DNA from: an uncultured Erysipelotrichaceae bacterium
GTDB taxonomy: Bacteria > Bacillota_I > Bacilli_A > Erysipelotrichales > Erysipelotrichaceae
Assembly (NCBI GenBank): GCA_900315065.1
Contig: OMXQ01000020.1
Span: 1-33,164, forward strand
Length of the DNA stretch: 33,164 nt
Direction: 5' to 3'
Position 1 is the stretch's first letter; each line of letters opens with the position of its first letter. Position numbers and translations under genes: made by a program. Under the pieces are notes generated by a model. The model did not search any database. It saw nothing but the letters and a program-made list of their open reading frames with translations, and had not been told where the DNA came from. Shown here one piece after another: positions 101-24,890 of the stretch.

Positions 101-2590
101 TTATTTCTGTTTCTCAATTATCTTCCAGAAAGCTTCTATCTGTTTCCCGACAGAGTCAATGGAACAGAAGGTTCTCTGTTTCCATTCAGGCGGAAACATA
201 TTCTGATAGCGGTAGGAAGAAAGGCGTTTGTCTGCCAATAGAAGAACACCGGTATCTTCTTCCGTGCGGATGAGTCTGCCGGCTGCCTGCAGGATCTTTG
301 CCATGCCCGGATACGTATAGGCATAGGCAAATCCCATCCCGCCGTTTTCATCAAAGTAGGTCTGCAGGACATTGGACTGGTTGGAAATCTGCGGAATACC
401 GGTGCCGATGACCATGACACCGACCAGCTGTTCTTTTTCGAGATTGATGCCTTCAGAAAAGACAGATCCAAGTACGGCTAAGCCGCACAGGCTTTTTCCT
501 TCTTCTCTTTTTTCCGCAAAAGCTTCCAGATAGTCTTCTTTGTCTGCTTCCCGCATGCCTTTTTCCTGTTTCAATAGTTCCAGATTTTCACTTTCCTTCA
601 GATAATATGAAACCTGATCCATAAAGAGGAAAGAAGGGAAGAAGACAAGATAATTGCCGCTATGAGAAGCACACATTTCCTTTATATAAGCAGCGCAGCG
701 CTGATACATGGCTTCGCTTCTTGCCTGATACAAAGAAGTCAGGTCACTGGTTATCAGGATCTGTCTTCTGCTTTCATCAAAGACGGATTGGGCGTAGGCA
801 GTCAGGTCATCTTCTTCTGCACACAATAATTTCCGGTAGTAATCCATCGGCAGCAAAGTTGCGGAAAAGAAGATTGATGCTTTTGTTTTCTTCAGCGTTT
901 CTTTCAGGTCTTTGGAAGGATCTGCACAGAAAATATGAATGACATAGTCCTTGTCATCATTGCTTTCTTCATAATTGAGATAATGAGACCCGCTTCTTTC
1001 GTATGCATTGAGGAACCTGCGGATATCAAAATAGAGCTGGCGCAGGTTTTCATTGATTTCTTCTTTTTCTTTCGGATCAGAGAAGTATTCTTCCATAGCA
1101 CCGTTGAATTCTTTGAGCAAAGTGCAGAAAGAGCCAAGGTCCTCTGCTTTGCGCCATTTGCCGTCAGTTTCAGAAAGATAGTCTTCTTTTCTTTTCTTCA
1201 GATACCGGAGCAGGGCATTGCATACCTTCAGGATATAGGAAGCAGAAGACAATGCCTTCAGGTCTTTCTTTGCCTGTACAAAGGCAGATTCAGAAAGGAC
1301 AGCCGAGAACATGTTTCTGGCTCTGTCCGGTAAGTTATGTGCTTCATCAATGAGCAGGACTGTATCAGAAATGCCTTCTCCATAGACGAATCTTTGTAGA
1401 TGGACGGAAGGATCAAAGACATAGTTGTAATCACAGATCACCCCGTCGCAGAAATCAGAAATATCCAGAGAGAATTCAAAAGGACATACCTGATGCTTTT
1501 CTGCCAGGAACTGCACCAGGTTTCTGTCAAAGGTCTGGTAGTTGGAAAGGGCCTCATACAAGGCATCATTGATCCGGTCATAGTGGCCTTTTGCATAAGG
1601 ACACTGGTCAGGCCGACAGTGGTTTGCCCGGCTGTCTTCACGCGAGGATAAAGGACAGATTCTGGACTTTGCCGTAAGGACAAGCGTCGAAAAATACAGG
1701 CCGTGGGCATGAAGAATATTGAAAGCGTCTTCCGCTGCTTTTCTGGTGATGGTCTTGGCAGTCAGGTAGTAAAGATGATCTGCTTTGGAAAGGCCGATGG
1801 CTTTCAGAGTCGGAAAGATGACTGCCAGGGTTTTGCCGGAACCGGTTGGTGCCTGCAGGTAGAGTTTCTTTCCTGCTTCAATTGTTCTGTATACATAAGC
1901 TGCCGTTCTTCTCTGGCCTTTGCGGTACTCATACGGGAAAGTCAGTTCCTGGAGGGAATGATTTCTCTTTTCAAGATGGGTGATGATCAGAACTGCCCAT
2001 TTTCTGTATTCTTCCAGCAGCGCAAAAAACCATTCTTCCAGAGCGGCAAACGTATATTGTTTGTGGAAATACATTCGCTCCTGTGTGTCGAGCGAGATAT
2101 AGGTCAGCTGGACAGTAACCTTCTGACCAGGATCACTCATTTCGTGTTTTCTCAGATACAGATAGGCATAGGACTTTGCCTGCGCAAGATGAACCGGCAC
2201 CGGTTCTTCCAGCTTGGTGACATCGTAGTACATGCCTTTGATTTCCTCGATGGTAACGGCTTCTTTCGTATCGAGGACACCATCGGCTCTGCCTTCAATC
2301 TGCAATGCAAAGTCAAAAGGAGAAGTGCTTTCTGCAGGACACTTGTGACGCAAGGCATCAATGTCATATTTTCCTTCCGGAAAATAGAAAGTATCAGTCA
2401 GGGTAACTTCTGCTTCGTAAGTTTCATTTTTTTCCGTCTGTTCACCCTGGATCATACGGTGAAGGCGGGAGCCTTCCTGCATGGCATTCAATGCATTGCC
2501 CAGAGAAGAAGTAGAATCAATGTCGCCTTCGCGCATTAAAAACTCAACCAGAGACCGGACGGAAATATGAATTGCATGCAGTTCACTCAT
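101..2590 (-). CDS. PD-(D/E)XK nuclease-like domain fused to DinG/XPD-type SF2 DNA helicase
   Basis: An 829-residue protein. The N-terminal ~200 residues resemble a Cas4/RecB-like PD-(D/E)XK nuclease: an EGRADGV segment, then EEIKG, then HLAQAKSYAY. An XPD/DinG helicase core follows, with Walker A APTGSGKT (Lys ~253) and DEAH box LLIDEAHN (~413-420). Four cysteines in the SRICPL...HCRPDQC region fit the iron-sulphur cluster expected in XPD-like helicases. A C-terminal motif VI-like stretch reads AAGRLIRTEED. Family knowledge suggests 5'-3' unwinding coupled to cleavage of branched or damaged DNA. Its ATG overlaps the stop of the upstream gene by 4 bp, so the two are translationally coupled. 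Fusions of this type are fairly widespread in Bacillota. Whether the job here is repair or defence cannot be told from sequence. The helicase call is firm; nuclease activity is inferred. Confidence 0.88.
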   Translation of the reverse strand: MSELHAIHISVRSLVEFLMREGDIDSTSSLGNALNAMQEGSRLHRMIQGEQTEKNETYEAEVTLTDTFYFPEGKYDIDALRHKCPAESTSPFDFALQIEGRADGVLDTKEAVTIEEIKGMYYDVTKLEEPVPVHLAQAKSYAYLYLRKHEMSDPGQKVTVQLTYISLDTQERMYFHKQYTFAALEEWFFALLEEYRKWAVLIITHLEKRNHSLQELTFPYEYRKGQRRTAAYVYRTIEAGKKLYLQAPTGSGKTLAVIFPTLKAIGLSKADHLYYLTAKTITRKAAEDAFNILHAHGLYFSTLVLTAKSRICPLSSREDSRANHCRPDQCPYAKGHYDRINDALYEALSNYQTFDRNLVQFLAEKHQVCPFEFSLDISDFCDGVICDYNYVFDPSVHLQRFVYGEGISDTVLLIDEAHNLPDRARNMFSAVLSESAFVQAKKDLKALSSASYILKVCNALLRYLKKRKEDYLSETDGKWRKAEDLGSFCTLLKEFNGAMEEYFSDPKEKEEINENLRQLYFDIRRFLNAYERSGSHYLNYEESNDDKDYVIHIFCADPSKDLKETLKKTKASIFFSATLLPMDYYRKLLCAEEDDLTAYAQSVFDESRRQILITSDLTSLYQARSEAMYQRCAAYIKEMCASHSGNYLVFFPSFLFMDQVSYYLKESENLELLKQEKGMREADKEDYLEAFAEKREEGKSLCGLAVLGSVFSEGINLEKEQLVGVMVIGTGIPQISNQSNVLQTYFDENGGMGFAYAYTYPGMAKILQAAGRLIRTEEDTGVLLLADKRLSSYRYQNMFPPEWKQRTFCSIDSVGKQIEAFWKIIEKQK

Positions 2591-3840
2591 AAACCTGCCT
2601 CCCTGAGTTTTTTCTTAAGATTTGCTTCGGTAGGATCCGTGTCATAGTTCCAGATGATCAGAGTAACATTGTTGTCTTTGCAGGCCTGGGCTTTTTTCTG
2701 GTCCAGTTCCTGTCGTTTTGCCAAAGCTTCTTGGCCGCCGAAAAAGTCAACCGGCTGGTAGTGCTGAACACCCTGGTATTCAATTGCCGCAGAAAGAGAA
2801 GGAATATAGATATCCAGGCTTTGCAGCTGCAGCCAGTCCGGCCGGTATTGGTACAAAGTATCGGGATAGAGTCTTCTGGCAGCTAAGAACAGAGACAATT
2901 CGTGTTTCCACTTTGGATGCAGAATACCTTCTGCCGTCAGTTTGGAACGGATTTCCATTCTTCTCAGGCGCCAGTCACATCTGAAGTGATCCTTTGTTTC
3001 GTAAGCATCGATGTCATCATACCACCAGCCGAAAAGGGGCATGATATCAATTGCCAGCGCATGAAAAAATTCCAGTTCGTCTTTGAACCAGCCCATGGCA
3101 AGAATGTGATCGATTTCTCTTCTGACCCGCAGTATTTTGGCAGGATTATGGTGCCATGACAAGCCGCCCTGGTATTTTGTCAATCGGTCCGGCAGCCATG
3201 GTGATCTGAGTACGGTGTCTTTGTAGCAGAGGTGGTCCAGGTAGTAGGGCAGGGTATTGCCGTAGATCTTATAGCCGCCGAAGATTTCATTGGCATCAGC
3301 GGTATAGATGATATGGTGCAGCAGCAGAATGTCTTCCATGTTTTCTTTGGAAAAAACAGCCATGTACTGGATTTCATCCTGGTCAGGAAACAGATTGTTG
3401 AGTACAACGATGCGCTTTGCCTTCCGGCACACTTCCTGAACAATAAAATACTGATAAGCATAGCTTTGCGGATAGATAAAAGCAGTTTCTTTGTCCGAAT
3501 CAATCTCAGCAAACTGAGACATGAAAGCAGAAACAAGCGGATTGGTGTGAATCGGATCATGGGCAAGAAGCAGCTCCATGGTCTTTTTCCGATAGGGCAG
3601 GTCTGACCAGGATAACTGGACGAAGAACTTCTCATAGCCTTTCAATAAAAACTCAGCCCGGTCTTCATCAGAAAGGTCTTTCTGAAAAGATTCATGGTCA
3701 GAAAGAATACTGTCCAAAGTTGTAAATATAGTCATGTCTCTGACCCTGAGATTGCCTGCCCAGAGTTTGTTGAGACGGGTATAGTCCATATCATTGACGG
3801 GATCTGGTTTTAGATGCACTGCCGGTTTCATAGAAAACAT
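2587..3840 (-). CDS. Protein with C-terminal restriction-endonuclease-like domain, partner of the DinG-type helicase
   Basis: About 417 residues from the ATG at 3840. An in-frame TTG 15 bases upstream would lengthen it by five residues, and neither start has a clear Shine-Dalgarno, so the start is uncertain. The first ~300 residues are unrecognised. The last ~90 contain SLDIYIPSLSAAIEYQGVQH, followed by FFGG and a terminal LIIWNYD. This acidic D-x(n)-ExQ pattern is typical of PD-(D/E)XK or Vsr-like nuclease folds found at the end of many uncharacterised bacterial proteins. The preceding YRPDWL..QSLDIYIP segment fits the same fold. The 4-bp overlap with the helicase-nuclease gene points to a shared pathway. 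No signal peptide or membrane segment is seen. The function is unknown; the nuclease fold is inferred from motif spacing. Confidence 0.75.
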   Translation of the reverse strand: MFSMKPAVHLKPDPVNDMDYTRLNKLWAGNLRVRDMTIFTTLDSILSDHESFQKDLSDEDRAEFLLKGYEKFFVQLSWSDLPYRKKTMELLLAHDPIHTNPLVSAFMSQFAEIDSDKETAFIYPQSYAYQYFIVQEVCRKAKRIVVLNNLFPDQDEIQYMAVFSKENMEDILLLHHIIYTADANEIFGGYKIYGNTLPYYLDHLCYKDTVLRSPWLPDRLTKYQGGLSWHHNPAKILRVRREIDHILAMGWFKDELEFFHALAIDIMPLFGWWYDDIDAYETKDHFRCDWRLRRMEIRSKLTAEGILHPKWKHELSLFLAARRLYPDTLYQYRPDWLQLQSLDIYIPSLSAAIEYQGVQHYQPVDFFGGQEALAKRQELDQKKAQACKDNNVTLIIWNYDTDPTEANLKKKLREAGL

Positions 3841-3855
3841 TGTAGCCAAAACCAA

Positions 3856-4569: not shown

Positions 4570-5610
4570 TTATGATGCTGTCATAGTTGAATAAGCAGCC
4601 TCTGCTTCCTGGTACCACTTGTGCATTTCTTCCTGCAGACAAGCAGGGGAAAGCACCAGCGCTTCGGCACCAAAGCGGGAAAAATAGAAACGGGCTTGCA
4701 AAGACGTGCAGGCAAAGTCACGGACATGGTCATCTTCAGAATGAATCCTGATGCATTTCGGACGTAAATTCATCTGGGAAGAGAGTTTCTTCAAACCTTT
4801 GTCCGTAAAACGCACGGTAATGGTTACCGGATAGCCGCCGGTAAACTGGACGCCGTCTTCCATCAGGATTTTGTCGATTTCCTTTGTTTCTGCTTTGGTA
4901 AAAGAACCGTCAGTATCCTGTCTGATCACGGCTTTATCGATTCTGCTTAAGCGCAATGAATAGATCTTTCCGTCAATTTTCGGAAAATCCGGAGCAATCG
5001 CTTTGGCAATGACATAAGAATAGGTTGATAAAGGATCTGATGCAATTTTATAAATCTTCATCAGATACTTCCTGCCGAAAGAATGAAAGATGCAGACGGC
5101 ATTGCCTTCCTTTGCAGCTTGTAACAAAGTATCCAGAACATCTTTGCAATAATACTTCTCACGCTCAAGATAAGGCAGCCGGCAGAATTCTTCAATCAGG
5201 GCATCCAGGTATTTCTTAATGCCTTTTGGATAATACAATTCTTCATGAGTGGAAGCATCACTTGTTAAAAGAAAAAGATTTGCTTTGGAAAGGCGGAAAA
5301 GAACTGACGATTTCGCTTCCTGATAAACAGGCAGAGCACTGGTCAGCTTTTCACATTCTGCTGCAATCAGTTTGTCCATGACTTCACTGTACTCTGGCCC
5401 AAGGGAATTCATCAAAGAAGTCTGGCAGGCATTGAGCTGTACAGACAAGGAAGCTTTGGCAGAAAGGGAATAGCCGGCAATGATTCTGTTCAGCAAGGTA
5501 GCAGTACCGATGCCCAGGTTTGCCTGGTCTTCCTGCAGAGTATTCATCGCAAAAGAAGTCAGAGAAATGCGGACTTTGTTTTCAGAATTGATGTCAGTAA
5601 AAAGAGACAT
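4570..5610 (-). CDS. WYL-domain transcriptional regulator
   Basis: 346 residues from the ATG at 5610, chosen because AAAGGAGGACCT ends just upstream; a longer frame beginning at 5643 lacks a ribosome site. The central part (SFGRKYLMKIYKIASDPLS, then YVIAKAIA and YSLRLSRI) matches the WYL ligand-binding SH3-like fold. The end (ARFYFSRFGAEALVLSP) matches the WCX C-terminal extension, with a final helix EEMHKWYQEAEAAY. The N-terminal ~130 residues are helical, but a winged helix is not obvious. WYL proteins generally act as ligand- or nucleic-acid-sensing transcription factors and often control defence or stress genes. The gene is transcribed away from the structured RNA at 5785, and the 170 bases between them contain an 11-bp direct repeat that could be its operator. 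The ligand is unknown. Confidence 0.75.
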   Translation of the reverse strand: MSLFTDINSENKVRISLTSFAMNTLQEDQANLGIGTATLLNRIIAGYSLSAKASLSVQLNACQTSLMNSLGPEYSEVMDKLIAAECEKLTSALPVYQEAKSSVLFRLSKANLFLLTSDASTHEELYYPKGIKKYLDALIEEFCRLPYLEREKYYCKDVLDTLLQAAKEGNAVCIFHSFGRKYLMKIYKIASDPLSTYSYVIAKAIAPDFPKIDGKIYSLRLSRIDKAVIRQDTDGSFTKAETKEIDKILMEDGVQFTGGYPVTITVRFTDKGLKKLSSQMNLRPKCIRIHSEDDHVRDFACTSLQARFYFSRFGAEALVLSPACLQEEMHKWYQEAEAAYSTMTAS

Positions 5611-5651: not shown

Positions 5652-5728
5652 AAATGGTAACATAAAATAAAATATATCAAATGAAATAACAGTTATATTA
5701 TGCAACATACATAATAAAAATGGTAACA
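5652..5728. promoter_or_regulatory. Direct repeat AAATGGTAACA, possible WYL-regulator operator
   Basis: The 11-mer AAATGGTAACA occurs exactly at 5652-5662 and 5718-5728, 66 bp apart, in the AT-rich region between the divergent WYL gene and the structured RNA. Exact repeats of this length in a 140-bp spacer suggest a protein-binding site. Assignment to the WYL protein is inference from position. Confidence 0.45.
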
Positions 5729-5784
5729 GAAATATTTTTTATGGTTCCTATGAAACGCACAGGCCCTGATTTATCATAATCGTG

Positions 5785-6388
5785 TCAGATGAGGAAATTC
5801 TTCCGCTTCTGATCAGAACCGGCAGACAGCCATGTGTACTTTCCCTTCAGCAGGGGGCATGGGCGCGGCTGGTCAGTCACCAGGGATGAGCGTACAAGGA
5901 TACTTATACGCAAGTCCTCCTGAGCTGCAGGAATGCAGCGAAAGGGAAGCGTTGATTCGCAACTGGTGCATGGCTGCGGCACACAGGGTGTTCGAGCAAA
6001 GGCAGACAGGCGTCAGGTATGAACAAGAGGGAACCATTTCCCGCCTGGCAGGTACGGGGCGGTGCCCGTATAGCTGACAGGTATACCATAAATCATATGA
6101 GTCGTGAAACCGGCCAAAGCCGGCGTATAACTGATTCCTGTGTCTGAATAGCCCAAACGACTATATAAACAGGAGTATTCATAAAACTGAATGCCGGGTG
6201 AAAGGTGGAGGTCTCAATCCTCCCGCAGTTCTTTCGTGTCTCAGGACACGATCGGAAGAGAAGTTTGCAAAAGACGTTTTGCAGGCTCAGTCTCTTCTGC
6301 TGCGTTGCTGAAAATGCGGAAACACCTGCAGTGTACGGCGAATAAAAACCGGTCTGCCGGTTCTGACCAGAAACGGAATCTCATCTGA
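5785..6388 (+). ncRNA. Large highly structured non-coding RNA (~600 nt)
   Basis: The ends pair through about 34 base pairs: 5785-5793 with 6380-6388 (9 bp), 5801-5805 with 6374-6378, 5807-5811 with 6368-6372, and 5813-5827 with 6352-6366 (15 bp perfect). The interior holds many perfect hairpins: 5869-5883, 5890-5911, 5924-5939 (GGAA loop), 6029-6042, 6053-6070, 6110-6123, 6207-6223, 6235-6250 (CGTGTC/GACACG), 6266-6283 (TGCAAAA/TTTTGCA, enclosed by 6255-6261/6291-6297) and 6322-6334. TCCTGT 6136-6141 pairs with ACAGGA 6169-6174. Short frames inside lack ribosome sites. A -10-like CATAAT (5775-5780) lies just upstream. Size, closing helix and ornate folding recall ROOL, GOLLD or OLE RNAs; no known signature was confirmed. 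The plus strand is assumed from that -10 and from the divergent WYL gene. RNase P and tmRNA hallmarks were not seen. Confidence 0.72.
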
Positions 6389-6486: not shown

Positions 6487-6621
6487 ATGATGCGGGCAGA
6501 ATTGGAAAATCCTTATTTCATCCGTGAAAGACAAAATAATCAGAAGGTAATCCTCGTTCACCTGAGTACAATTGCAATATTGACCGTCATGGAAACGATC
6601 CTTTATCTTCTGACGCCTTAA
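6487..6621 (+). CDS. 44-residue single-pass membrane microprotein
   Basis: A short frame with a textbook ribosome site (AAGGAGG, 6471-6477, 9 bases before ATG) and a strong terminator after it. It encodes a polar N-terminus (MMRAELENPYFIRERQNNQK), then a hydrophobic segment of ~22 residues (VILVHLSTIAILTVMETILY) ending in LLTP. A second in-frame ATG follows immediately. Basic and polar residues precede the helix, and almost nothing follows it. No family is recognised; such peptides often modulate a larger membrane complex. It stands alone between the structured RNA and its own terminator, so it is either monocistronic or read through from the RNA. Pho-box-like repeats upstream suggest response-regulator control. 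Confidence 0.7.
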   Translation: MMRAELENPYFIRERQNNQKVILVHLSTIAILTVMETILYLLTP

Positions 6622-6649
6622 GTACAGAAGAAAAAAATAAGATACAACG

Positions 6650-15271: not shown

Positions 15272-18200
15272 TTAACTTGATAATTTGTTGGTGCTTCTTA
15301 AGTACTTTGCAGGAATCGGTTGATCCAGTTTCCAAATGATATTCATTGGTTTACTGCCAGAAGAAGAAACATAGTCGGCAGTACCTAAGAAGACATATGG
15401 TTCTGCTTCGTTAGACTTAACATTGTTACGATTCTTATATTCACGGACAAAGAGAAGTATCTTGGAGCCTCTTTGTGCGTGGTGGATATATCGTTGCCCG
15501 GTTTCAGATTCAGAGCTTGTAGTACTTTGGCTTTGCCAATGGAACAAATATTCATTTTCAGAATAATCATTGTACAAAGTTGTAGGAGAATAGTCCTTTT
15601 CGGATTTATTCAAAGTAATTAACAAGACATCACAATTCTGATCCGGTAGCCATTTGACGCCTTCTCGAATGTTGTGTGGTTGCAAATAATCCATGGCAGT
15701 AAATAACTGGTCTCTGGTATAGGTACAATGTACATCGAGTGGGCAGTCAAAGCCAAGGTCACTTTCGATCTCAACAAGGTCAATCTTTGTTAATCGGTAA
15801 CGAAGTAAGTCAATGAGTTCTTGGCAACAGATAGGATTTGCCTTGAGTTCCTTTATGCCATCTAATGGAGAAGTGAAGTTGGATTCTTCACATGATTTGT
15901 TATAGAGGGTGTATTGGAACATCTGCAGCATTCTGTATTCTGCAGTATTTGTTTCTGGAAGAATTGGTAATTCTTCATTCGTTAAGAGGTATATGATGTA
16001 GCGAATAAAACGCACTGAGTCTAGCCAAGCAAAACGTACCATTGCTTTGGAGAAGACACCTTTTTGCATAATTTCTTCATCGAAGTTTTTTCGTAAGCCT
16101 GCTTGTGCTTCTAAGGAAGAAAGGGTGTTATAGCTTCTGTTTTTGTTATAGAAGTCACGTGGGTCTATATTCGTATGATCAAAGAAGTTGGCAAGGGTAA
16201 GTGGCTTGCCAGTGTCTTGCGTAAAGGTCCTGAGTTGATTGATGACGCGTTGGTTGAAGTTGCCTTTGTATGCAGCTCTGATGTTATCGAGGATGTATTG
16301 TTGGGCAACTTTTTCCATTTTGATGAAACAGCCTTTTGGTAAGTATTGGAAGCCTTTAGTGATTTCATCTTCTACACTACGGTGTGTTCTTTCTAGCAAG
16401 GCTGTGAATCTGTCTTCAAAGTTGTAGTGGTTGTTGGCTTTGCCAACAAAGTCCAAGACGGTTAAGAAGTCCTTGCCTTGGTATTGACGCAAGCCTCTTC
16501 CAAGTTGTTGTAAGAACACAGTTAAAGATTCTGTTGGGCGTAGGAAAAGAACAGTATTCACGCATGGAATATCAACGCCTTCATTATAGATATCAACAGA
16601 GAAGATGAAACGAATGGTACCGTCGGTCAATTTACGAGCGGCATCGTTTCGTTCTTCTTCCTTTGAGTCACCAGTTAAGGCAATGGAAGGAACACCATGG
16701 TCATTGAAATATTCTGCCATGTATTTAGCATGTTCAACGGTAACACAGAAGCCTAAGCCTTTGACATCACGCATATCAGTGACGTATTTGTCTACTGCAT
16801 GCAGAATAGTATCCGCACGAGCTTGGGCAATAGCAGGATCAGCTATATATGCTTTTTCCAGTTCACTACGTAAATAACCACCATTTTGCCAAGGAACATT
16901 TTCCAGGTTTACGACATCCGTCACGATAAAATACTGGAATGGTGCCAATAACTTACGATTGATCGCTTCTGGTAAACGAATTTCAGCTGTGATGACATTG
17001 TTGAAATAGGGAAGTATGCTAACGCCATCCATTCTTTCCGGGGTTGCCGTTAAGCCAAGTAATACGTGTGGCTTATAGTATCCAAGCAGGGTCTGATAGA
17101 CAGGAGCTGCATCATGATGAGACTCATCTAAGACAATATAATCAAAAGAATCAGGGGCAGTTGTTTCATTCATGTGCTTGGAATTAAAGGACTGAATGGA
17201 AACAAACAAGTGATCTGGATCATTTATTTCAGAATAATTACCAACGATTAAGGATCCAAAGTTTGGATCTTTCAAAACACCCCTGAAACAAGCAAGAGCT
17301 TGTTTCAGGATTTCCTCTCGGTGACAAACAAATAAGAAACGATTCGAAGAAGTAGGGTGTTGTTTACACCAATTGCGATAGTCAAAGGCAGCTAAGACGG
17401 TTTTACCAGTACCAGTAGCCGCAACGATCAAGTTCTTATAATTGCCACGAATGGTTCTTTCAGCTTGTATCTGATCCAGTATTTCTTGTTGGAATGGGTA
17501 TGGATTGATGTCAAAGTCATACTTGAGAATAAGAGCAGTAGTGCCTTTGTGTTTCTCATGATCGATGGCATCTTGTAGTTTCTGATAGGAGTCACTTGTA
17601 TAGAGTTCAAATTCTTCTGAGTTCCAATAGGTATTGAAGGAAGCATCAATCTTCTTGAAGGTTTCAGGTAAGTCCTGAGCAGTGATCTTCATGTTCCATT
17701 CCAAGCCTGCACTCATGGCAGCATTGGAAATATTGGAAGAACCAATATAGGCAGTGGTATAGCCTGTCTCACGATAGAAGACATAAGTCTTAGCATGAAG
17801 ACGGGTACGCTTTGTATCATAAGAAATCTTAATTGAAGTGTTAGGTAACTTGGATAAGACATCAATGGCTTTTGGATCGGTAGCACCAGTGTATGTAGTC
17901 GTAATAATGCGCAATGTGCCACCACGCTTACAGAAGGCTTCTAAGTCATCTTTTAATAGACGAATGCCAGACCAACGAATAAAGGAAACGAGTAAATCAA
18001 TACGATTAGCGGAACGAATTTCTTTTTGAAACTCTTGGAATAAATTTGGTTCGCTATTTGCACCAGTGAATAATGAACTCTGGGCTATAGAAGTTTCTGG
18101 TCGATCTGGTTCGCCTGTAAACAAAGAATTTTTCTTATTAACGACAGCATTCAGAATTTCTGACTTGCCATCTTCTTCCGTTAGGTATTGATCACTTCCG

Positions 18201-18457
18201 TTATCCTCTGCTTCATACTTAGCAAGTACATCCATGATTTCATTCATGAGGGCTGTCTGTTTTTCACTAGGTATTTTTTTGTCTTGCATCACTTGCAAAG
18301 TGTGTTTGATTGCTTCACTTGCATAGTGAGAATAGACTTCTGGTTTTTCTTCTTCATCTAGTGTTTGTTTATATGTCTTAATCTCATCAGAAGCATGGTC
18401 TAATTCTTCTTTGAGCTCTTGATTAATGAGTTTTTCATAGATGCCTTCTTTGATCAT
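15272..18457 (-). CDS. PLD-like nuclease / SF2 helicase / DUF3427-type protein
   Basis: 1061 residues. After a helical N-terminus, residues ~145-290 form a phospholipase-D-like domain with one HxK motif (HAKTYVF, His221 and Lys223) and IGSSNISNAAM. The SF2 helicase follows: Walker A VAATGTGKT (Lys352), DEAH variant VLDESHHDA, motif III GLTATPERMDG and motif VI QQLGRGLRQYQG. The C-terminal third, with AEPYVFLGTADYVS near the end, matches the DUF3427-type extension. This architecture is well known in Bacillota, often in defence islands and annotated as a type III restriction-like helicase. A single HKD half-site implies dimerisation for cleavage. It is not a canonical HsdR despite the nearby HsdM remnant. 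AGAGGCA precedes the ATG, and a minus-strand promoter lies at 18491-18520. Domain calls are firm; the biological target is unknown. Confidence 0.9.
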   Translation of the reverse strand: MIKEGIYEKLINQELKEELDHASDEIKTYKQTLDEEEKPEVYSHYASEAIKHTLQVMQDKKIPSEKQTALMNEIMDVLAKYEAEDNGSDQYLTEEDGKSEILNAVVNKKNSLFTGEPDRPETSIAQSSLFTGANSEPNLFQEFQKEIRSANRIDLLVSFIRWSGIRLLKDDLEAFCKRGGTLRIITTTYTGATDPKAIDVLSKLPNTSIKISYDTKRTRLHAKTYVFYRETGYTTAYIGSSNISNAAMSAGLEWNMKITAQDLPETFKKIDASFNTYWNSEEFELYTSDSYQKLQDAIDHEKHKGTTALILKYDFDINPYPFQQEILDQIQAERTIRGNYKNLIVAATGTGKTVLAAFDYRNWCKQHPTSSNRFLFVCHREEILKQALACFRGVLKDPNFGSLIVGNYSEINDPDHLFVSIQSFNSKHMNETTAPDSFDYIVLDESHHDAAPVYQTLLGYYKPHVLLGLTATPERMDGVSILPYFNNVITAEIRLPEAINRKLLAPFQYFIVTDVVNLENVPWQNGGYLRSELEKAYIADPAIAQARADTILHAVDKYVTDMRDVKGLGFCVTVEHAKYMAEYFNDHGVPSIALTGDSKEEERNDAARKLTDGTIRFIFSVDIYNEGVDIPCVNTVLFLRPTESLTVFLQQLGRGLRQYQGKDFLTVLDFVGKANNHYNFEDRFTALLERTHRSVEDEITKGFQYLPKGCFIKMEKVAQQYILDNIRAAYKGNFNQRVINQLRTFTQDTGKPLTLANFFDHTNIDPRDFYNKNRSYNTLSSLEAQAGLRKNFDEEIMQKGVFSKAMVRFAWLDSVRFIRYIIYLLTNEELPILPETNTAEYRMLQMFQYTLYNKSCEESNFTSPLDGIKELKANPICCQELIDLLRYRLTKIDLVEIESDLGFDCPLDVHCTYTRDQLFTAMDYLQPHNIREGVKWLPDQNCDVLLITLNKSEKDYSPTTLYNDYSENEYLFHWQSQSTTSSESETGQRYIHHAQRGSKILLFVREYKNRNNVKSNEAEPYVFLGTADYVSSSGSKPMNIIWKLDQPIPAKYLRSTNKLSS

Positions 18458-18490
18458 AAGTCGTGCCTCTATTCTGATTATCTATGTACC

Positions 18491-18520
18491 AGGATACTAA
18501 GAATTAGCTGCCTTCGTCAA
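18491..18520 (-). promoter_or_regulatory. Promoter of the PLD-helicase gene
   Basis: Reading the minus strand: TTGACG (18515-18520), 18-bp spacer, TATCCT (18491-18496). It lies 34 bp before the start codon. Confidence 0.5.
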
Positions 18521-18676
18521 CTAAGTAACTAGGAAACAAAATAAAATAATTCCATGCATGAAAAGAATGAAAAAAACGTTGTGAAAGCCAACAAAATATA
18601 AATGGAAAGACATGAAATCGTTAGGAATAATGAACAACATGATACAATTGACTTGTATTGAAAGAGAAGGCATGAA

Positions 18677-18787
18677 ATGAGCTACAAGATCATTGACTCA
18701 GAATTTCATACAGATGACTACGGCAATGCAAAATACCTGCGTAACTGGCCTATGCTATACATACTGGAAAATGGCAAGGAAGCATAA
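18677..18787 (+). pseudogene. N-terminal remnant of a GIY-YIG / DUF2075-type protein
   Basis: A 36-codon frame reads MSYKIIDSEFHTDDYGNAKY, then LRNWPMLYILENGKEA, then TAA. This matches the opening of GIY-YIG plus DUF2075 (Schlafen-like ATPase) proteins, where NWPxxYIL is the GIY-equivalent and the YIG half (YVGET or similar) should follow KEA directly. Here the stop falls exactly at that point, and the rest of the gene is missing. GAGAAGG and a TACAAT box (18643-18648) upstream show the gene once had expression signals. These proteins are common in defence islands. The identification rests on a short but distinctive stretch. Confidence 0.55.
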
Positions 18788-18901
18788 AAATTATGAAATT
18801 AAAGTAAGCTGAATCTCTAATTATGGTTATTATAGAAAAAATATGTGTTGCACTTCATTGGGACGGAAGTAACTTTATGAACATGACGGAGGATAACGGA
18901 A

Positions 18902-19591
18902 ATGGCTAAGAAATAAGCGGAGAAAAAGACCATTAGCATGGAAGAATCACTCTGGCGGTCTGCAGATAAATTACGTGGCTCAGTTGAACCATCAGAGTAT
19001 AAGCATGTTGTGCTAAGCTTGATTTTTCTCAAGTATGCAAGTGACCGTTTTGAAGAGCAGCGTAAGAAGATCATCGCAAATGGGCATGAGAAGTTCGTGG
19101 ACATGAAAGCGTTCTATACGCAGGACAATGCTTTTTACTTACCGGATGAAACGCGCTGGTCGTATATCATGCAGCATGCGAAGCAGCCGGATATAGCCCT
19201 TCTGATAGATACGGCACTGTATACAATTGAGAAAAATAACGAGCAGCTTAAAGGCGCTCTGCCGGACAATTATTATTCCAGGTTGAATTTGGACACTTCG
19301 AAATTGGCTTCGCTTCTGGATGTGATTGATGGTATTGAACTGACTGCCGATAAGGAACAGGACGTCATCGGAAGAGTATATGAATATTTTCTTAGCAAAT
19401 TTGCTCTGAAAGAAGGCAAGGGTAAAGGAGAATTCTACACTCCTAAAACCATAGTCAATTTGATTGCTGAGCTGCTGGAGCCGTATTCTGGTATCCTTTA
19501 TGATTCAGTGTGTGGCACCGGAGGCATGCTAATCGAGTCCATTTACCACATTCATAATGCTCGAATGAACTACGAAAGTTCTTCGTTTTGA
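18902..19591 (+). pseudogene. hsdM: Broken type I restriction methylase subunit HsdM (nonsense codon 5, 3' truncated)
   Basis: ACGGAGGATAACGGAA precedes ATG 18902, which encodes MAKK, then TAA at 18914, then in frame AEKKTISMEESLWRSADKLR. HsdM proteins commonly begin MAKKK..KKT, so a single change of AAA to TAA explains the stop. The frame continues through the HsdM N-terminal helical domain (SEYKHVVLSLIFLKYASDRF) and reaches the SAM-binding motif I region (GEFYTPKTIVNLIAELLEP, then DSVCGTGGMLIES). It then runs into unrelated residues and stops at 19591. The catalytic NPPY motif and about half of the protein are missing. A restart at ATG 18938 could still make the stub. No HsdS or HsdR is present, so the system is dead. 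Confidence 0.85.
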
Positions 19592-19733
19592 AAAAACTTA
19601 TCCATACCTCATGTATCAGACAACAGGAAATTATCTAGTAATTCAACTGATGGGTGAAGAATATCAGAAGGAAATATTGGGTACCAGAAGGAAACTACTT
19701 GCGCTCCGCGAAAAACTTGAAAGAGGTGATGTT
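19569..19733 (+). pseudogene. Unidentified C-terminal gene fragment at the HsdM breakpoint
   Basis: The frame used by the following methyltransferase is open from 19569. It encodes TTKVLRFEKTYPYLMYQTTG, then NYLVIQLMGEEYQKEILGTR and RKLLALREKLERGDV before the methyltransferase ATG. No ribosome site precedes the internal ATG at 19611. It has the composition of a real protein tail but I cannot name it. It overlaps the end of the HsdM stub, so the junction near 19570-19600 looks like a deletion or recombination scar. Alternatively it may be an N-terminal extension of the methyltransferase. Confidence 0.35.
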
Positions 19734-20321
19734 ATGTCCGATACACTCGATTACTACAACAAAAACGCTGCATCCTTTTTCAATAACACAGCTGAAGTAA
19801 ACATGGGAACTATCCAGAAAAAATTCCTCTCATACTTGCCAGAAGGCAGCTTTATTCTTGACCTTGGATGCGGATCCGGAAGAGACACAAAACTATTTCA
19901 TGATAACGGCTATCGTGTAGAAGCAATGGACGGCTCAGAAGAAATGTGCAAACTTGCAGCAAAAGAAACAGGACTACAAGTAAAACACGTTCTCTTCTCA
20001 GACTTCCATGAAGAAAACAAATACGATGCTGTATGGGCATGTGCTTCTATTCTTCACTTGCCAAAGAATGAAATGAAGAACATGCTGGAAAGAATAGCAG
20101 CCTCCCTTCAAGACAAAGGAATCTTCTATACTTCCTTCAAATATGGTGACTATGAAGGAGAAAAGAACGGAAGATACTTTTCCTATTACACTGAAGAAAC
20201 ACTCAATGAACTCTTATCTTCCGTTCCTTCTCTTGAACTATTGGAAGAATGGATCTCTGTTGATGCCAGAAAAGGCAGGGAAGATGAAAAGTGGATCAAT
20301 GTGATCCTCAGAAAGAAGTAA
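19734..20321 (+). CDS. Class I SAM-dependent methyltransferase
   Basis: 195 residues from ATG 19734 (MSDTLDYYNKN), chosen because AGAGGTGAT lies just upstream; the open frame extends further 5' without a ribosome site. SAM-binding motif I is FILDLGCGSGRDTKLF, motif II EAMDGSEEM, and a post-II strand YDAVWACASILHLP (motif IV region). It resembles the TehB/UbiE-like small-molecule or protein methyltransferases of ~200 residues. It lacks NPPY or other DNA-methylase signatures, so it is probably not a restriction-modification enzyme. The gene sits between the HsdM remnant and an HNH nuclease gene, and a terminator separates it from the latter. The substrate is unknown. Confidence 0.85.
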   Translation: MSDTLDYYNKNAASFFNNTAEVNMGTIQKKFLSYLPEGSFILDLGCGSGRDTKLFHDNGYRVEAMDGSEEMCKLAAKETGLQVKHVLFSDFHEENKYDAVWACASILHLPKNEMKNMLERIAASLQDKGIFYTSFKYGDYEGEKNGRYFSYYTEETLNELLSSVPSLELLEEWISVDARKGREDEKWINVILRKK

Positions 20322-20328
20322 CAATATG

Positions 20329-20352
20329 AGCAGGCTGCGAAGCCTGCTTTTT
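20329..20352 (+). terminator. Intrinsic terminator after the methyltransferase gene
   Basis: AGCAGGCT (20329-20336), GCGA tetraloop, AGCCTGCT (20341-20348), then T residues. Confidence 0.85.
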
Positions 20353-20370
20353 CCAATGCGCGCACAATGC

Positions 20371-20376
20371 TACAAT
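20371..20376 (+). promoter_or_regulatory. -10 box upstream of the HNH gene
   Basis: TACAAT lies 25 bp before the ATG at 20402. The -35 at a proper distance falls in the T-run of the preceding terminator and is weak. Confidence 0.4.
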
Positions 20377-20401
20377 AGAAACAGAAATTACGGTGACCAT
20401 C

Positions 20402-21583
20402 ATGGACCTGAAGAATATAACAATTGATCCTGTATATGCCAACAAGCTGAATATGCACAGCTTTGAACAGATGCTCGACAACAATGCCCAGGGCTATAAG
20501 TTCTACTGGCTGGAAGCAATTGTGCAATTGATTGTAAATGATGATAAATCAGAGATTTCGTTTGATGAAATTATCAAGAGGATGATCTGGTCTGCCTGGT
20601 ATTCTGTCACCGAATATCATCTGCATCTTGGTCCATGTTATCAAGGCAAATATGCGAATGCGATTGAAAAAATCATACATGAACTTTCGGCCGGTCTGGA
20701 ATCACCTCAGAACTTTTCCTATGAAGAATTTGAAAAAATCTATGTAGAGAAATATGGGGCAATATCCGCTGATGTGAAAGTACTTTATCTGAATGTGCCA
20801 TACAGATTATTGTCTTCTTTCCTGGATCTTTCAGGCGGAGACAAGCGTTGGAACCAGACGAAATGGCTGATTGACTATATGCAGGAGTTCAACAGCAGAA
20901 ACAATGAATTCCTGCTTCCCTATATCATTCTGGATGACAAAAAATCCGGCAAAAGAATCAGAATTACACCTGAATGGAAAAGACTCATTCTTGATAATGT
21001 GACTATTATTGAAAGCTGGATTGATCTTAAGAAGATCCAGTATCTTCAGCAAAGAAATCCAGGCGTGCCAGGCATTGTCAATAAAATTCATAAGGAAACT
21101 TATGAACAAAGACACCTGGATCATGTCAGAAAACTATGGAAATACTATTCTGAAATTACCGGGAAACCTATCATTGATATTTATTCCAATGACATTCTGG
21201 AAGGGGCAGTTTCCATTGATCACTTTGTCCCGTGGTCTTATATTTCCAATGATGAAATCTGGAATCTGATTCCTACGTCAAGATCACTGAATTCAAAGAA
21301 AAGCGACAAACTCCCGGAATGGAATAAGTACTTCAAACAATTCTCCAAAGAAAAATATGAATTATACCAGGCAGTCTTCCCGTCTGAAGAAAACAACGCA
21401 ATCCAGAAACTGAAAGACCTCTTTGAAGCATGCCGCACTGACAACCTGAATTCTCTTTGGGCAAGTGAAAAACTGTATATTCCTGGTCACAGTGAAAATG
21501 AATTTCAGTCTATATTGGAAGAAAATCTGAAACCTGTGTTTGATGCCGCTAAGCTGCAGGGATTCCGGATCTGGAAAGTATGA
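20402..21583 (+). CDS. HNH endonuclease domain protein
   Basis: 393 residues from ATG 20402. A GTG three codons upstream is part of the GGTGA that probably serves as ribosome site. Residues 1-~250 are helical and unrecognised. The HNH motif follows: SIDHFVPWSYIS (Asp273, His274), then NLIPTSRSLNSKKSDKLP with the conserved Asn and Lys. No zinc cysteines are present. This N-terminal helical plus HNH layout is frequent among stand-alone nucleases of defence islands and restriction-like systems. The gene ends 51 bp before jetD with no terminator between, so it may be transcribed together with the Wadjet genes. It could be an independent nuclease or an accessory to that system. The HNH call is strong; the target is unknown. 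Confidence 0.85.
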   Translation: MDLKNITIDPVYANKLNMHSFEQMLDNNAQGYKFYWLEAIVQLIVNDDKSEISFDEIIKRMIWSAWYSVTEYHLHLGPCYQGKYANAIEKIIHELSAGLESPQNFSYEEFEKIYVEKYGAISADVKVLYLNVPYRLLSSFLDLSGGDKRWNQTKWLIDYMQEFNSRNNEFLLPYIILDDKKSGKRIRITPEWKRLILDNVTIIESWIDLKKIQYLQQRNPGVPGIVNKIHKETYEQRHLDHVRKLWKYYSEITGKPIIDIYSNDILEGAVSIDHFVPWSYISNDEIWNLIPTSRSLNSKKSDKLPEWNKYFKQFSKEKYELYQAVFPSEENNAIQKLKDLFEACRTDNLNSLWASEKLYIPGHSENEFQSILEENLKPVFDAAKLQGFRIWKV

Positions 21584-21634: not shown

Positions 21635-22657
21635 ATGAACTACCTCACCAGGCTGGAAAAATACAGGAAGAAAACTATCACGAGAGAAGATCTGGCTTCT
21701 CTTTTCGACATTTATGAAGATAACGTTCTTTATGAAATTATCTCTTCTTTGTCTCAATATCTGCAGCCGATCGTCTCTTCTGCTACCAACGGCAGTATGA
21801 AATATCCGATCTATAACAAATATCATATTATTCTGAACAAAGAACCGGATCAGAAATTACTAGCTGAGATCCAGTCTCTTCATCCGCTTCTTCATGGCAG
21901 CTCCTGGTTGATAAAACACCCGCAGGACTATGAACGCTTTTCTTTACGCTTGAAACAATTGAGTACCTGGTTCTTTCAACATGGCAAAGACACACTTCCT
22001 GTTTCCCGCAAAGAAAGATCTTTTGAAATCTTCAACGAAGAAAAAATGCTGGAAGAAGATACCGGCTTGCCGGCAGTACTTCGAAAAATCGGACTCACAA
22101 AAGAAGATCTGTATTTCTATAACACACCGGAATATTGTTTTCACGATTTCATTCCTGTCCGCAAGGAAAATATGACTCTGCTGATCTTGGAAAACAAAGA
22201 CATCTGGTTTAATCTGAGACGCATGTTCTTTGAAGAAAACAAGCACACGCTGTTTGGTACTGCTTATGACGGCCTTGTGTATGGTGCAGGCAATGGCGTT
22301 ACGACAAAAAATGCTTTGGCAGAATACACAAACTTCCTTGGATTGCAGCAGGTTCACTACCTCTATTGGGGAGACCTGGACAGGGAAGGCCTCAACATAT
22401 TCCTACGGCTATGTGAGAACAATACTCAGTCAGATATCAAGCTCTTTGTGCCGGCTTACCAGAACATGCTTGCAATGTCAATTGACCGTCAACTTCCGGA
22501 TAGTGAAGACAAGCGTGAAAAGATGGATGACTATACGCAAATCTATGCTTCTCTCGGCACTTATGCTTTTCAGGCAGAAAAATATATTCAGGAAAACAAG
22601 CGCTTGCCTCAGGAAATCATATCCTATGCCGTGTTGAAAGAAAGGATGGACAAATGA
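21635..22657 (+). CDS. jetD: Wadjet nuclease subunit JetD (Toprim fold)
   Basis: 340 residues. JetD is the Toprim-type nuclease that cuts plasmid DNA after loop extrusion by the JetABC SMC motor. The C-terminal half carries the Toprim signatures: LLILENKDIW (Glu186) and YLYWGDLDREGL (Asp247, Asp249). FGTAYDGLVYGAGNGV sits between them, as in the DUF2220/JetD C-terminal family. The N-terminal ~130 residues are the DUF3322-like arm. The start has only AGG three bases before ATG, so the leader is short or initiation is weak. This may keep the nuclease scarce. Its stop overlaps the jetA start (ATGA). Type I Wadjet loci place jetD last; here it is first, which with the JetA and JetB families points to a type II/III arrangement. 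Subtype not certain. Confidence 0.88.
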   Translation: MNYLTRLEKYRKKTITREDLASLFDIYEDNVLYEIISSLSQYLQPIVSSATNGSMKYPIYNKYHIILNKEPDQKLLAEIQSLHPLLHGSSWLIKHPQDYERFSLRLKQLSTWFFQHGKDTLPVSRKERSFEIFNEEKMLEEDTGLPAVLRKIGLTKEDLYFYNTPEYCFHDFIPVRKENMTLLILENKDIWFNLRRMFFEENKHTLFGTAYDGLVYGAGNGVTTKNALAEYTNFLGLQQVHYLYWGDLDREGLNIFLRLCENNTQSDIKLFVPAYQNMLAMSIDRQLPDSEDKREKMDDYTQIYASLGTYAFQAEKYIQENKRLPQEIISYAVLKERMDK

Positions 22658-24195
22658 CAATGCGAAGTGACATAGCCGGATATTTAGCCGGTTGTGAAAA
22701 CAGAATGAAGTTCATTAACATCGTCAGGTGTCTGATCGACTATCCCTACTCGGATGATTTGAAGAAAATCATACCTGATCACAAGATCATGGATAATATT
22801 GTCCTTGCCGTATTGGTCTATATCAAGGAAAGATCTTTGGGAGAAGATCAGAAATGCAGACTCACTGACATTGCCGGTTTCCTGGAAGAAATTCTCCCGT
22901 CTTTTCATGTTGACAATGAAAATGCAGAATTCCTGGCCCGTTACATCACAGTTGCCATCCTTCAAAACGGCGGCCAGATTCAGGAATTCAAAACCTATGA
23001 CAGTAAGAAAAATGACTATGTCATGCAGCAGATACGACTTCTGTCTGAAAACGAAGGATCCTATCGTCTAACGGATGAAGCCTTTGACTTCCTCTTCCGC
23101 ACCAAGGAAATTGAATCGGAACTGGATTACTCAGTCACAAGATTCCGGCTGAGCGAATACATGAAACGCCACAATTACACCGAAGCCCTCAGCCAATCCC
23201 GTGAACTCATTCAGAGAATCCGCAGTATGAAGACCTCGATGGAGGACTTTTTACTTCGCTGCCGGGAAAATATTGCCCGCATAGATATGGACAGATACAA
23301 CCATCTCATCACTGACTTCAGAAATCTGATGAATGAAGAAGACAAGCAGCTCAATGACATTCAGAAAGATGCGAAGAAGGAAGAAAAAAGACTCCTGGAA
23401 GCAGAACAAAACCGGGTTGATGCCAAGAACCTGCTCCGCAACCAGAAAGCCCTGGCTGAAATTGTCCGCAACATCGATATCACGATCTCTGAACAAAGAA
23501 GCCTGATTAATAAACGCTCATCTTTCTCTGATTCCTATGAACAGCTCATCCATGACAGCTTCACGACCGGCAGGTTTGAGAGCCTGGACTTTGAAAAAGA
23601 TGTTATGGTTCCTTTACGCAACACAGATGGTGTTCTGGGAGATGCAGCTTTACACTTCCTGTATCCCTTATTGAAACCGGTCTTTCCAAATTTCTTCTCC
23701 ATTGAAAATTTCTATGCCCCGCAAGGCTCGTTAAATCAGGAAGAAGAACCAGAAGAATTTAGTGAAGAAGACTATGAAAACCTGACAGCACAGGTGCAGG
23801 AAAGCCGCAACCAACGCTACCAGGGCATTGTAACTTCCTTCTTTACCTATATCCGTGACCACAAGCACTTTACAATCCAGGACTATATCAATGACCTGAA
23901 AGTATCCCAGTTAAACGACTATTGCAAAGAAAGCGCACTTCCGAATGTGATCCTGACTTTCTATGGATTGCAGACGATTGATATTCAGGAATGGAAAAGG
24001 GAAGACATTCCGGATATCAAACCTCTGGGTGAATTTGAACTCTCCTGGTGTCTGAAAAACCTGCCGGAAGACTTATTGGACATGAAATGCATCTCTTTTG
24101 AAAGATCCGATCAGACTTTCCGCTATGAATATGACAATAACGGTGAAAAAACAACGATAGAAATGAATGACTTTACAGTGGAGGTAACCTTATGA
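22654..24195 (+). CDS. jetA: Wadjet kleisin subunit JetA
   Basis: 513 residues. It is read from the ATG overlapping the jetD stop; a second ATG two codons later is equally possible, with AAAGGATGG as ribosome site. JetA is the MukF-like kleisin that bridges the SMC heads. Visible parts: N-terminal winged-helix-like domain (~1-170, SLGEDQKCRLTDIAGFLEEI and EGSYRLTDEAFDFLFRTKEI), a central helical and coiled-coil segment (~185-300, FRNLMNEEDKQLNDIQKDAK, then KRLLEAEQNRVDAKNLL), an acidic linker (EEEPEEFSEEDYEN) and a C-terminal wing (~370-513). It matches the Wadjet JetA family of non-type-I loci by length and layout. Overlap with jetB (ATGA) enforces matched production. Confidence 0.85.
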   Translation: MTMRSDIAGYLAGCENRMKFINIVRCLIDYPYSDDLKKIIPDHKIMDNIVLAVLVYIKERSLGEDQKCRLTDIAGFLEEILPSFHVDNENAEFLARYITVAILQNGGQIQEFKTYDSKKNDYVMQQIRLLSENEGSYRLTDEAFDFLFRTKEIESELDYSVTRFRLSEYMKRHNYTEALSQSRELIQRIRSMKTSMEDFLLRCRENIARIDMDRYNHLITDFRNLMNEEDKQLNDIQKDAKKEEKRLLEAEQNRVDAKNLLRNQKALAEIVRNIDITISEQRSLINKRSSFSDSYEQLIHDSFTTGRFESLDFEKDVMVPLRNTDGVLGDAALHFLYPLLKPVFPNFFSIENFYAPQGSLNQEEEPEEFSEEDYENLTAQVQESRNQRYQGIVTSFFTYIRDHKHFTIQDYINDLKVSQLNDYCKESALPNVILTFYGLQTIDIQEWKREDIPDIKPLGEFELSWCLKNLPEDLLDMKCISFERSDQTFRYEYDNNGEKTTIEMNDFTVEVTL

Positions 24196-24890
24196 GCAGA
24201 AAAACAATTGACCTCTTTCATGCCCTTATGAAAAAAGGCTGGATCGACAGAAAAGAAGACGCCCTGGCCTGGTCAATGTATGAAGACGATGAAGTCAAGG
24301 ATGAACTCCTTGACCTCAAGGAAGGTATGAACATTGACCTGATTCCTTCCGGCGACAGACTCTATATGGTACCGACTCAGGACAATGACCTCTTTCTGAA
24401 AAACAACATTGACTACAGAAAAGACATCAAAGCCGACAATACCGTAAGGCTTAGAGATCTGTATCTTCTCAATTACCTTGCAATTTATGTGCTTTATATC
24501 TTCTTCCGGGGAGAAGGAGCATCACTGCAAACCCGTGATTTCATTTCCAAAGAAGACCTGATCAAACAATTTACCCAGCATTGTGAGACAGCCTCTTCCT
24601 CCACCCAGGACAAGCAGACTGACTACTCGGAAAATTTCCGCTCGTTAGCAGATGACTGGCTGGCAAAAACAGAAGGCACTCCTGACTCTGCAAAGATGAA
24701 TGAACGCTACGGGATTGTTAACCGGCTTATGCGCAAATTCGAAGCAGATAACATTTTCATGACAGACACAGAAAATCTGATACGCCCGACCCGTAAAACC
24801 AGAGACCTGATGCCTTACTTCCTCCAGAAGGAAAGAATCAATGAGATCCAAGCCTGGATGAAGGAGAACACACATGCCGCAGATCACTAA
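24192..24890 (+). CDS. jetB: Wadjet KITE subunit JetB
   Basis: 232 residues; GGAGGTAACCTT before ATG. JetB is the MukE-like KITE protein of tandem winged helices that binds the kleisin and DNA. The start (TIDLFHALMKKGWIDRKEDA) and the middle (LRDLYLLNYLAIYVLYIFFR) match the DUF6063/DUF4194-type JetB families. RNGIVNRLMRKFEADN-like residues (GIVNRLMRKFEADNIFMTD) form the second winged helix. The chain ends in a basic helical tail. Its last 17 bases overlap the jetC start, and the jetC ribosome site AAGGAG lies inside this gene. Function is taken from the family; the position between JetA and JetC is exactly as expected. Confidence 0.85.
   Translation: MSRKTIDLFHALMKKGWIDRKEDALAWSMYEDDEVKDELLDLKEGMNIDLIPSGDRLYMVPTQDNDLFLKNNIDYRKDIKADNTVRLRDLYLLNYLAIYVLYIFFRGEGASLQTRDFISKEDLIKQFTQHCETASSSTQDKQTDYSENFRSLADDWLAKTEGTPDSAKMNERYGIVNRLMRKFEADNIFMTDTENLIRPTRKTRDLMPYFLQKERINEIQAWMKENTHAADH

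Follow-up and report, generated by a model that had tools for sequence, protein, structure and literature searches.

The 33,164-nucleotide stretch analysed here (the window) carries a bona fide, full-length ROOL RNA, which is divergently adjoined by the gene of a WYL1-type protein. We consider it slightly better than an even bet that this ROOL represents a chromosomal, non-phage subtype which is controlled by the adjacent WYL1-type protein and takes part in an RNA-damage response. Control of ROOL by the WYL protein is well supported; support for a role in RNA repair is no more than moderate, and weaker in the case of the window because the RtcB ligase is absent from its genome (assembly 96% complete). 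The ROOL RNA itself was known, and the WYL pairing and the RNA-repair company are new. Natural cages made of RNA alone are formed by ROOL and by GOLLD. The features of the window are collected in Table 1.

Table 1. Coordinates of features in the window
Feature	Positions	Strand	Remarks
XPD/DinG-like helicase overlapping a 422-aa protein	101-3855	-	C-terminus of the 422-aa protein like phage homing endonucleases
WYL1-type protein	4570-5610	-	Divergent from ROOL; AAGGAGGA lies before the ATG at 5610
Putative WYL operator copy 1, AAATGGTAACA	5652-5662	+	Exact 11-base repeat
Putative WYL operator copy 2, AAATGGTAACA	5718-5728	+	66 bp from copy 1
Candidate -10 hexamer TATCAT for ROOL	5772-5777	+	Sigma70-like consensus scan; consensus match only
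ROOL RNA with extended terminal helix	5785-6388	+	Rfam RF03087 match at 5806-6370
44-codon ORF	6488-6622	+	Strong ribosome site GAAGGAGG; one probable membrane segment; read from sequence
Type IV restriction enzyme (1061 aa), then type I methyltransferase split in two ORFs and HNH protein	15272-21583		
Complete Wadjet-type system, JetD-JetA-JetB-JetC	21635-29211	+	Type III models

Identification and fold of the ROOL RNA

When the whole window was searched against Rfam at the gathering score, ROOL (RF03087) alone was matched, with 188 bits (gathering score 99.1), an E value of 5.8e-41 and the model covered from 1 to 574 of 574; GOLLD, OLE, HEARO, RNase P and group II intron were not matched. 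The first-pass annotation had proposed a large, strongly structured RNA that was either a new class or ROOL-like, with an Rfam search of the segment as the check. The ROOL half of that claim was borne out by the full-length covariance-model match, and a new class was rejected at 188 bits. The predicted folding energy of 5785-6388 on the plus strand was -256.4 kcal/mol versus -194.3 ± 3.5 kcal/mol for 20 dinucleotide shuffles (z -17.8), which agrees with the proposal of strong structure. An RNA on the minus strand was rejected, since the fold there is weaker (z -9.6) and it is the plus strand that fits the model. The annotated terminal helix with many hairpins between its arms was recovered in the minimum-energy fold, where about 35 pairs close 5785-5827 with 6352-6388 around many local hairpins, and this helix lengthens P1 of the model on both sides; the annotated limits, which reach beyond the model match, are thus correct.

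The model pairs were canonical at 127 of 153 ungapped positions in the window ROOL, and 71 canonical pairs were changed on both sides with respect to the Rfam consensus; as a control, the 3' partners were slid by 1-3 positions, and only 36-43% of the pairs were then canonical. These compensatory changes are strong backing for the same structure as that of the ROOL model, and the identity of the RNA is settled. The known ROOLs (RF03087; env-120, L. salivarius megaplasmid) and the window ROOL are alike in complete secondary structure, in full-length model match and in size; the env-120 ROOL forms a homo-octameric RNA cage (PMC12286853).

An 81-aa ORF (5832-6077) crosses the ROOL region with no sign of being a gene; in L. 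salivarius, too, the reality of an ORF annotated over the ROOL has been questioned (PMC5643018). The candidate -10 hexamer predicts a start at about 5784-5785, where the terminal helix begins. By inspection of the sequence, no terminator was seen between ROOL and the 44-codon ORF.

Copy number and distribution of ROOL

A single ROOL copy was found in the 2.5-Mb genome of the window, so the miniature transposable element that had been named as an alternative, a unit present at many sites, was discarded. ROOL is patchy: within the genus, 8 of 70 genomes carry it, with 11 copies between them, and it was found in 12 of 145 genomes drawn from the family Erysipelotrichaceae. Copies of different lineages share about 40-45% base identity, and the window ROOL is 40-43% identical to the other ROOLs of its genus. 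Known ROOLs are usually reported from phages or prophages near tRNA islands, or from a megaplasmid, whereas the window ROOL is chromosomal and WYL-paired; no tRNA was found in the window. This WYL-paired chromosomal setting is what is new, and it makes ROOL a resident chromosomal gene outside phages.

WYL protein adjacent to ROOL

The WYL protein consists of a ribbon-helix-helix-like N-terminal part, a WYL/Sm barrel and a C-terminal part. A phmmer search against the PDB sequences gave as its sole match 6OAW (E = 1.6e-9), the WYL1 protein of a Cas13d system, and with a profile the alignment with 6OAW was full-length, over positions 11-333 (E = 4.2e-31). In Foldseek, the AF2 model (pLDDT 82) also retrieved 6OAW first (E = 4e-18), followed by DriD, PafBC, CapW and BrxR, and PADLOC called the protein WYL (E = 4.5e-11). 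Along its whole length the protein thus resembles the WYL1 accessory protein of Cas13d (PMC6547453), in sequence as well as in fold; unlike that protein, the window WYL faces a noncoding RNA gene, and no Cas13d was seen in the window. WYL1 prefers single-stranded RNA, the binding having been shown for RspWYL1 (PMC6547453).

The window WYL is only 19-24% identical to other WYL proteins of its subfamily. No member of the subfamily turned up in 2.9 million viral contigs or in 50,697 phage records, and the interpretation of this WYL as a phage gene was rejected on this ground; among plasmids, two weak Fusobacterium matches were obtained.

CapW and BrxR regulate defence systems, and this relationship, together with the defence genes of the window and the helicase/TerB clusters beside other ROOLs of the genus, would fit a WYL repressor of the CapW/BrxR kind that silences ROOL until a phage infects the cell or its DNA is damaged, with ROOL as an anti-phage device and not a part of RNA repair. 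We regard this as improbable, as the best structural match is WYL1, followed by the activators DriD and PafBC, and the conserved partners of the subfamily are RtcB and a Ro60-like protein, not nuclease effectors.

Recurrence of the WYL-ROOL linkage

The linkage was examined within the family and in 32 WYL loci of named genomes. Besides the window, the WYL gene divergently adjoins ROOL in G019, G006, G020, G197 and G141, and in G175 a WYL gene of the same subfamily lies 3.5 kb from ROOL. The WYL-linked ROOLs (about 42% identity) stand at four separate places in a MAFFT-based ROOL tree, which is weak at deep nodes and serves only to show that these copies are not one recent clade. Chance adjacency is estimated at about once per thousand ROOLs, because a genome of about 2 Mb contains about one such WYL gene or none. 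The first-pass annotation had held a chromosomal ROOL beside a WYL gene and outside a prophage to be notable. This is borne out, and more than was foreseen, as the linkage recurs in several ROOL lineages and connects ROOL with a regulon of the RNA-repair type.

ROOL was not detectable in 26 of the 32 WYL loci, so the module can do without it; when eight loci were searched by E value for diverged ROOLs overlooked in the remaining WYL leaders, none appeared. The genus also has ROOLs with no WYL gene beside them, and the proposed role therefore cannot hold for ROOL in general.

Putative WYL operator

In 23 of 31 WYL loci, two sites near (A/G)(G/T)GGTC(A/G) stand in direct orientation upstream of WYL, 54-57 bp apart; in three more loci they are 67-68 bp apart, so that the spacings differ by roughly one turn of the helix. 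The repeat pairs precede both kinds of transcript, ROOL and the RNA-repair operon. The pair precedes ROOL in G019, G006, G020 and G141, and in G197 with one changed base, and was found before none of the 11 ROOLs that lack a WYL neighbour. In a test that could have failed, the ROOL of G175, distant from its WYL gene, was found to have the pair still, at -149 and -94.

The AAATGGTAACA pair of the window is unique in the 2.5-Mb genome. A repeat as long arises in 13 of 500 shuffles of the intergenic region, and taken alone it is only moderately unusual; it carries weight because its geometry matches that of the relatives. The window repeats have diverged, having only the GGT core in common with the usual site (GGGGTCA/GTGGTCA).

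These results bear on the possibility that the ROOL is a decayed-prophage leftover, that is, a stranded phage ROOL with a coincidental WYL neighbour in a defence-rich region. ROOL is usually reported from phages or prophages (PMC12286853), and the restriction and Wadjet genes mark the region as variable, but no phage structural genes were recognised in the window, the RNA pairing is well kept, the WYL linkage extends over four ROOL lineages, and the paired operator stands before ROOL even where the WYL gene is 3.5 kb away; such an origin is therefore unlikely.

RNA-repair genes in the WYL loci of relatives

In 24 of 32 loci, RtcB and/or a DUF2828 protein is encoded on the divergent side of the same WYL. 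The AF2 model of the DUF2828 protein (pLDDT 82) gave six PDB matches with E below 0.001, which were the six best and were all Ro60. For L038:4579-6027 and its relatives (Pfam DUF2828 and DUF7788), the modelled structure matches Ro60 over the full length, and these proteins look like a Ro60 branch missed by sequence searches.

In 11 DUF2828-type loci the leader between the WYL and DUF2828 genes (L043-L051, L040 and L041; e.g. L043 3948-4438, minus strand) bears an array of three to six Y-RNA-like hairpins, which gives a total of 43. The stems (e.g. AGATGCC .. CAGCAA .. GGCATCT-TG) covary, each of the six stem positions showing at least 4 pair types. Three arrays contain an insert called tRNA by ARAGORN, and one hairpin per array often bears a tRNA mimic with GGTTCGAATCC. 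No Rfam family other than tRNA was matched by the hairpins in the loci tested, and the arrays look like an undescribed small-RNA family for the Ro60-like protein. Clusters of 3-10 tRNA genes were seen just downstream of WYL, and convergent with it, in L043, L044, L045 and L049.

In G019, G006 and G020, three species, the order is WYL-ROOL-RtcB, with ROOL filling the leader and RtcB directly after it. In G175, Y-like hairpins and a Ro60-like gene lie beside WYL, and ROOL-RtcB follows 3.5 kb on. Of the set of WYL, ROOL and RNA-repair genes, ROOL and WYL alone were seen in the window, and no Ro60-like gene was seen there; either different enzymes may partner the ROOL here, or the module may be a reduced one.

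In G019, G006 and G020, about 20 nt separate the 3' end of ROOL from the RtcB ribosome site, and a ribosome site with an ATG follows closely on the tandem ROOLs of G004 and G055 as well. Such spacing would suit a structured leader that controls the downstream gene (RtcB) in cis, in place of a free cage RNA. This is doubtful, as a full ROOL is kept in the window, where RtcB is lacking, the complete architecture of all full-length copies goes far beyond the needs of a leader, and the related L. salivarius ROOL is as abundant as 16S rRNA (PMC12286853, PMC5643018).

The loci of the relatives resemble the rsr-Y RNA-rtcBA operon of Salmonella with its divergent RtcR (PMC7790460) in having a divergent regulator, a noncoding RNA, RtcB and a Ro60-like protein. 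They differ from it in that WYL is used and not the CARF protein RtcR, and in that ROOL replaces Y RNA in some loci; the genome of the window differs further in lacking RtcB. ROOL RNA and RtcB were not found together in the best-matching openly readable papers, and the 2025 Nature paper on the structure of ROOL (PMC12286853) gives no function and mentions neither WYL, RtcB, Ro60 nor repair.

Proposed role of the WYL-ROOL pair

Under the favoured reading of WYL control within an RNA-damage response, a WYL dimer would bind the two repeats, sense nucleic-acid fragments and switch on the ROOL promoter. DriD and PafBC, structural relatives of the WYL protein, are activators of DNA-damage responses. 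The ROOL would assemble into a cage and help the cell through RNA damage, for example by holding or shielding tRNAs or their fragments for repair. From its gene company, ROOL would serve RNA repair, and in the WYL-ROOL-RtcB loci it would take the position that Y RNA has in RNA-repair operons. More tentatively, and with rather less than an even chance, ROOL cages may be, in one family at least, the noncoding RNA part of an RNA-damage response, in which a WYL1-type protein senses RNA fragments, binds the two direct repeats and activates ROOL, either alongside RtcB, the Ro60-like protein and the Y-RNA-like hairpins or as their substitute; ROOL would then perform the task of a Y RNA in the form of a cage as large as a ribosome.

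Because its DNA site can be defined, and because it accompanies ROOL in several lineages and RtcB/Ro60-type RNA repair in relatives, the WYL regulator offers a direct way to induce ROOL, and the link between WYL and RNA repair offers a specific, testable function for ROOL cages.

Additional observations on ROOL loci and on the window

Tandem ROOL pairs about 29 nt apart were found in two species, at L012 9744-10862 (minus strand, G004) and L017 9127-10236 (minus strand, G055), with a short upstream copy (503-507 nt) and a full-length downstream copy. In G004 the upstream ROOL has lost a hairpin and retains almost nothing of the central linker, which is disordered inside the known cage. Between G004 and G055, the identities are 86% (a-a), 78% (b-b) and about 60% (a-b); the duplication preceded the species split, so the pair has been maintained. 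Mixed cages with fewer linkers are possible.

In a second ROOL group (L016, L018, L019 and L033), a small XRE-type HTH gene lies directly 3' of ROOL, and downstream of the L. salivarius ROOL there is an HTH gene too (PMC5643018); this arrangement is possibly a second kind of ROOL control module. In G108 (L035:5269-5846), ROOL adjoins a TraG-type conjugation ATPase gene, and from this locus ROOL may travel on a conjugative-type element as well.

In the window, the restriction genes are partly decayed, and the helicase and the 422-aa protein beside the WYL gene are possibly a two-gene defence pair.
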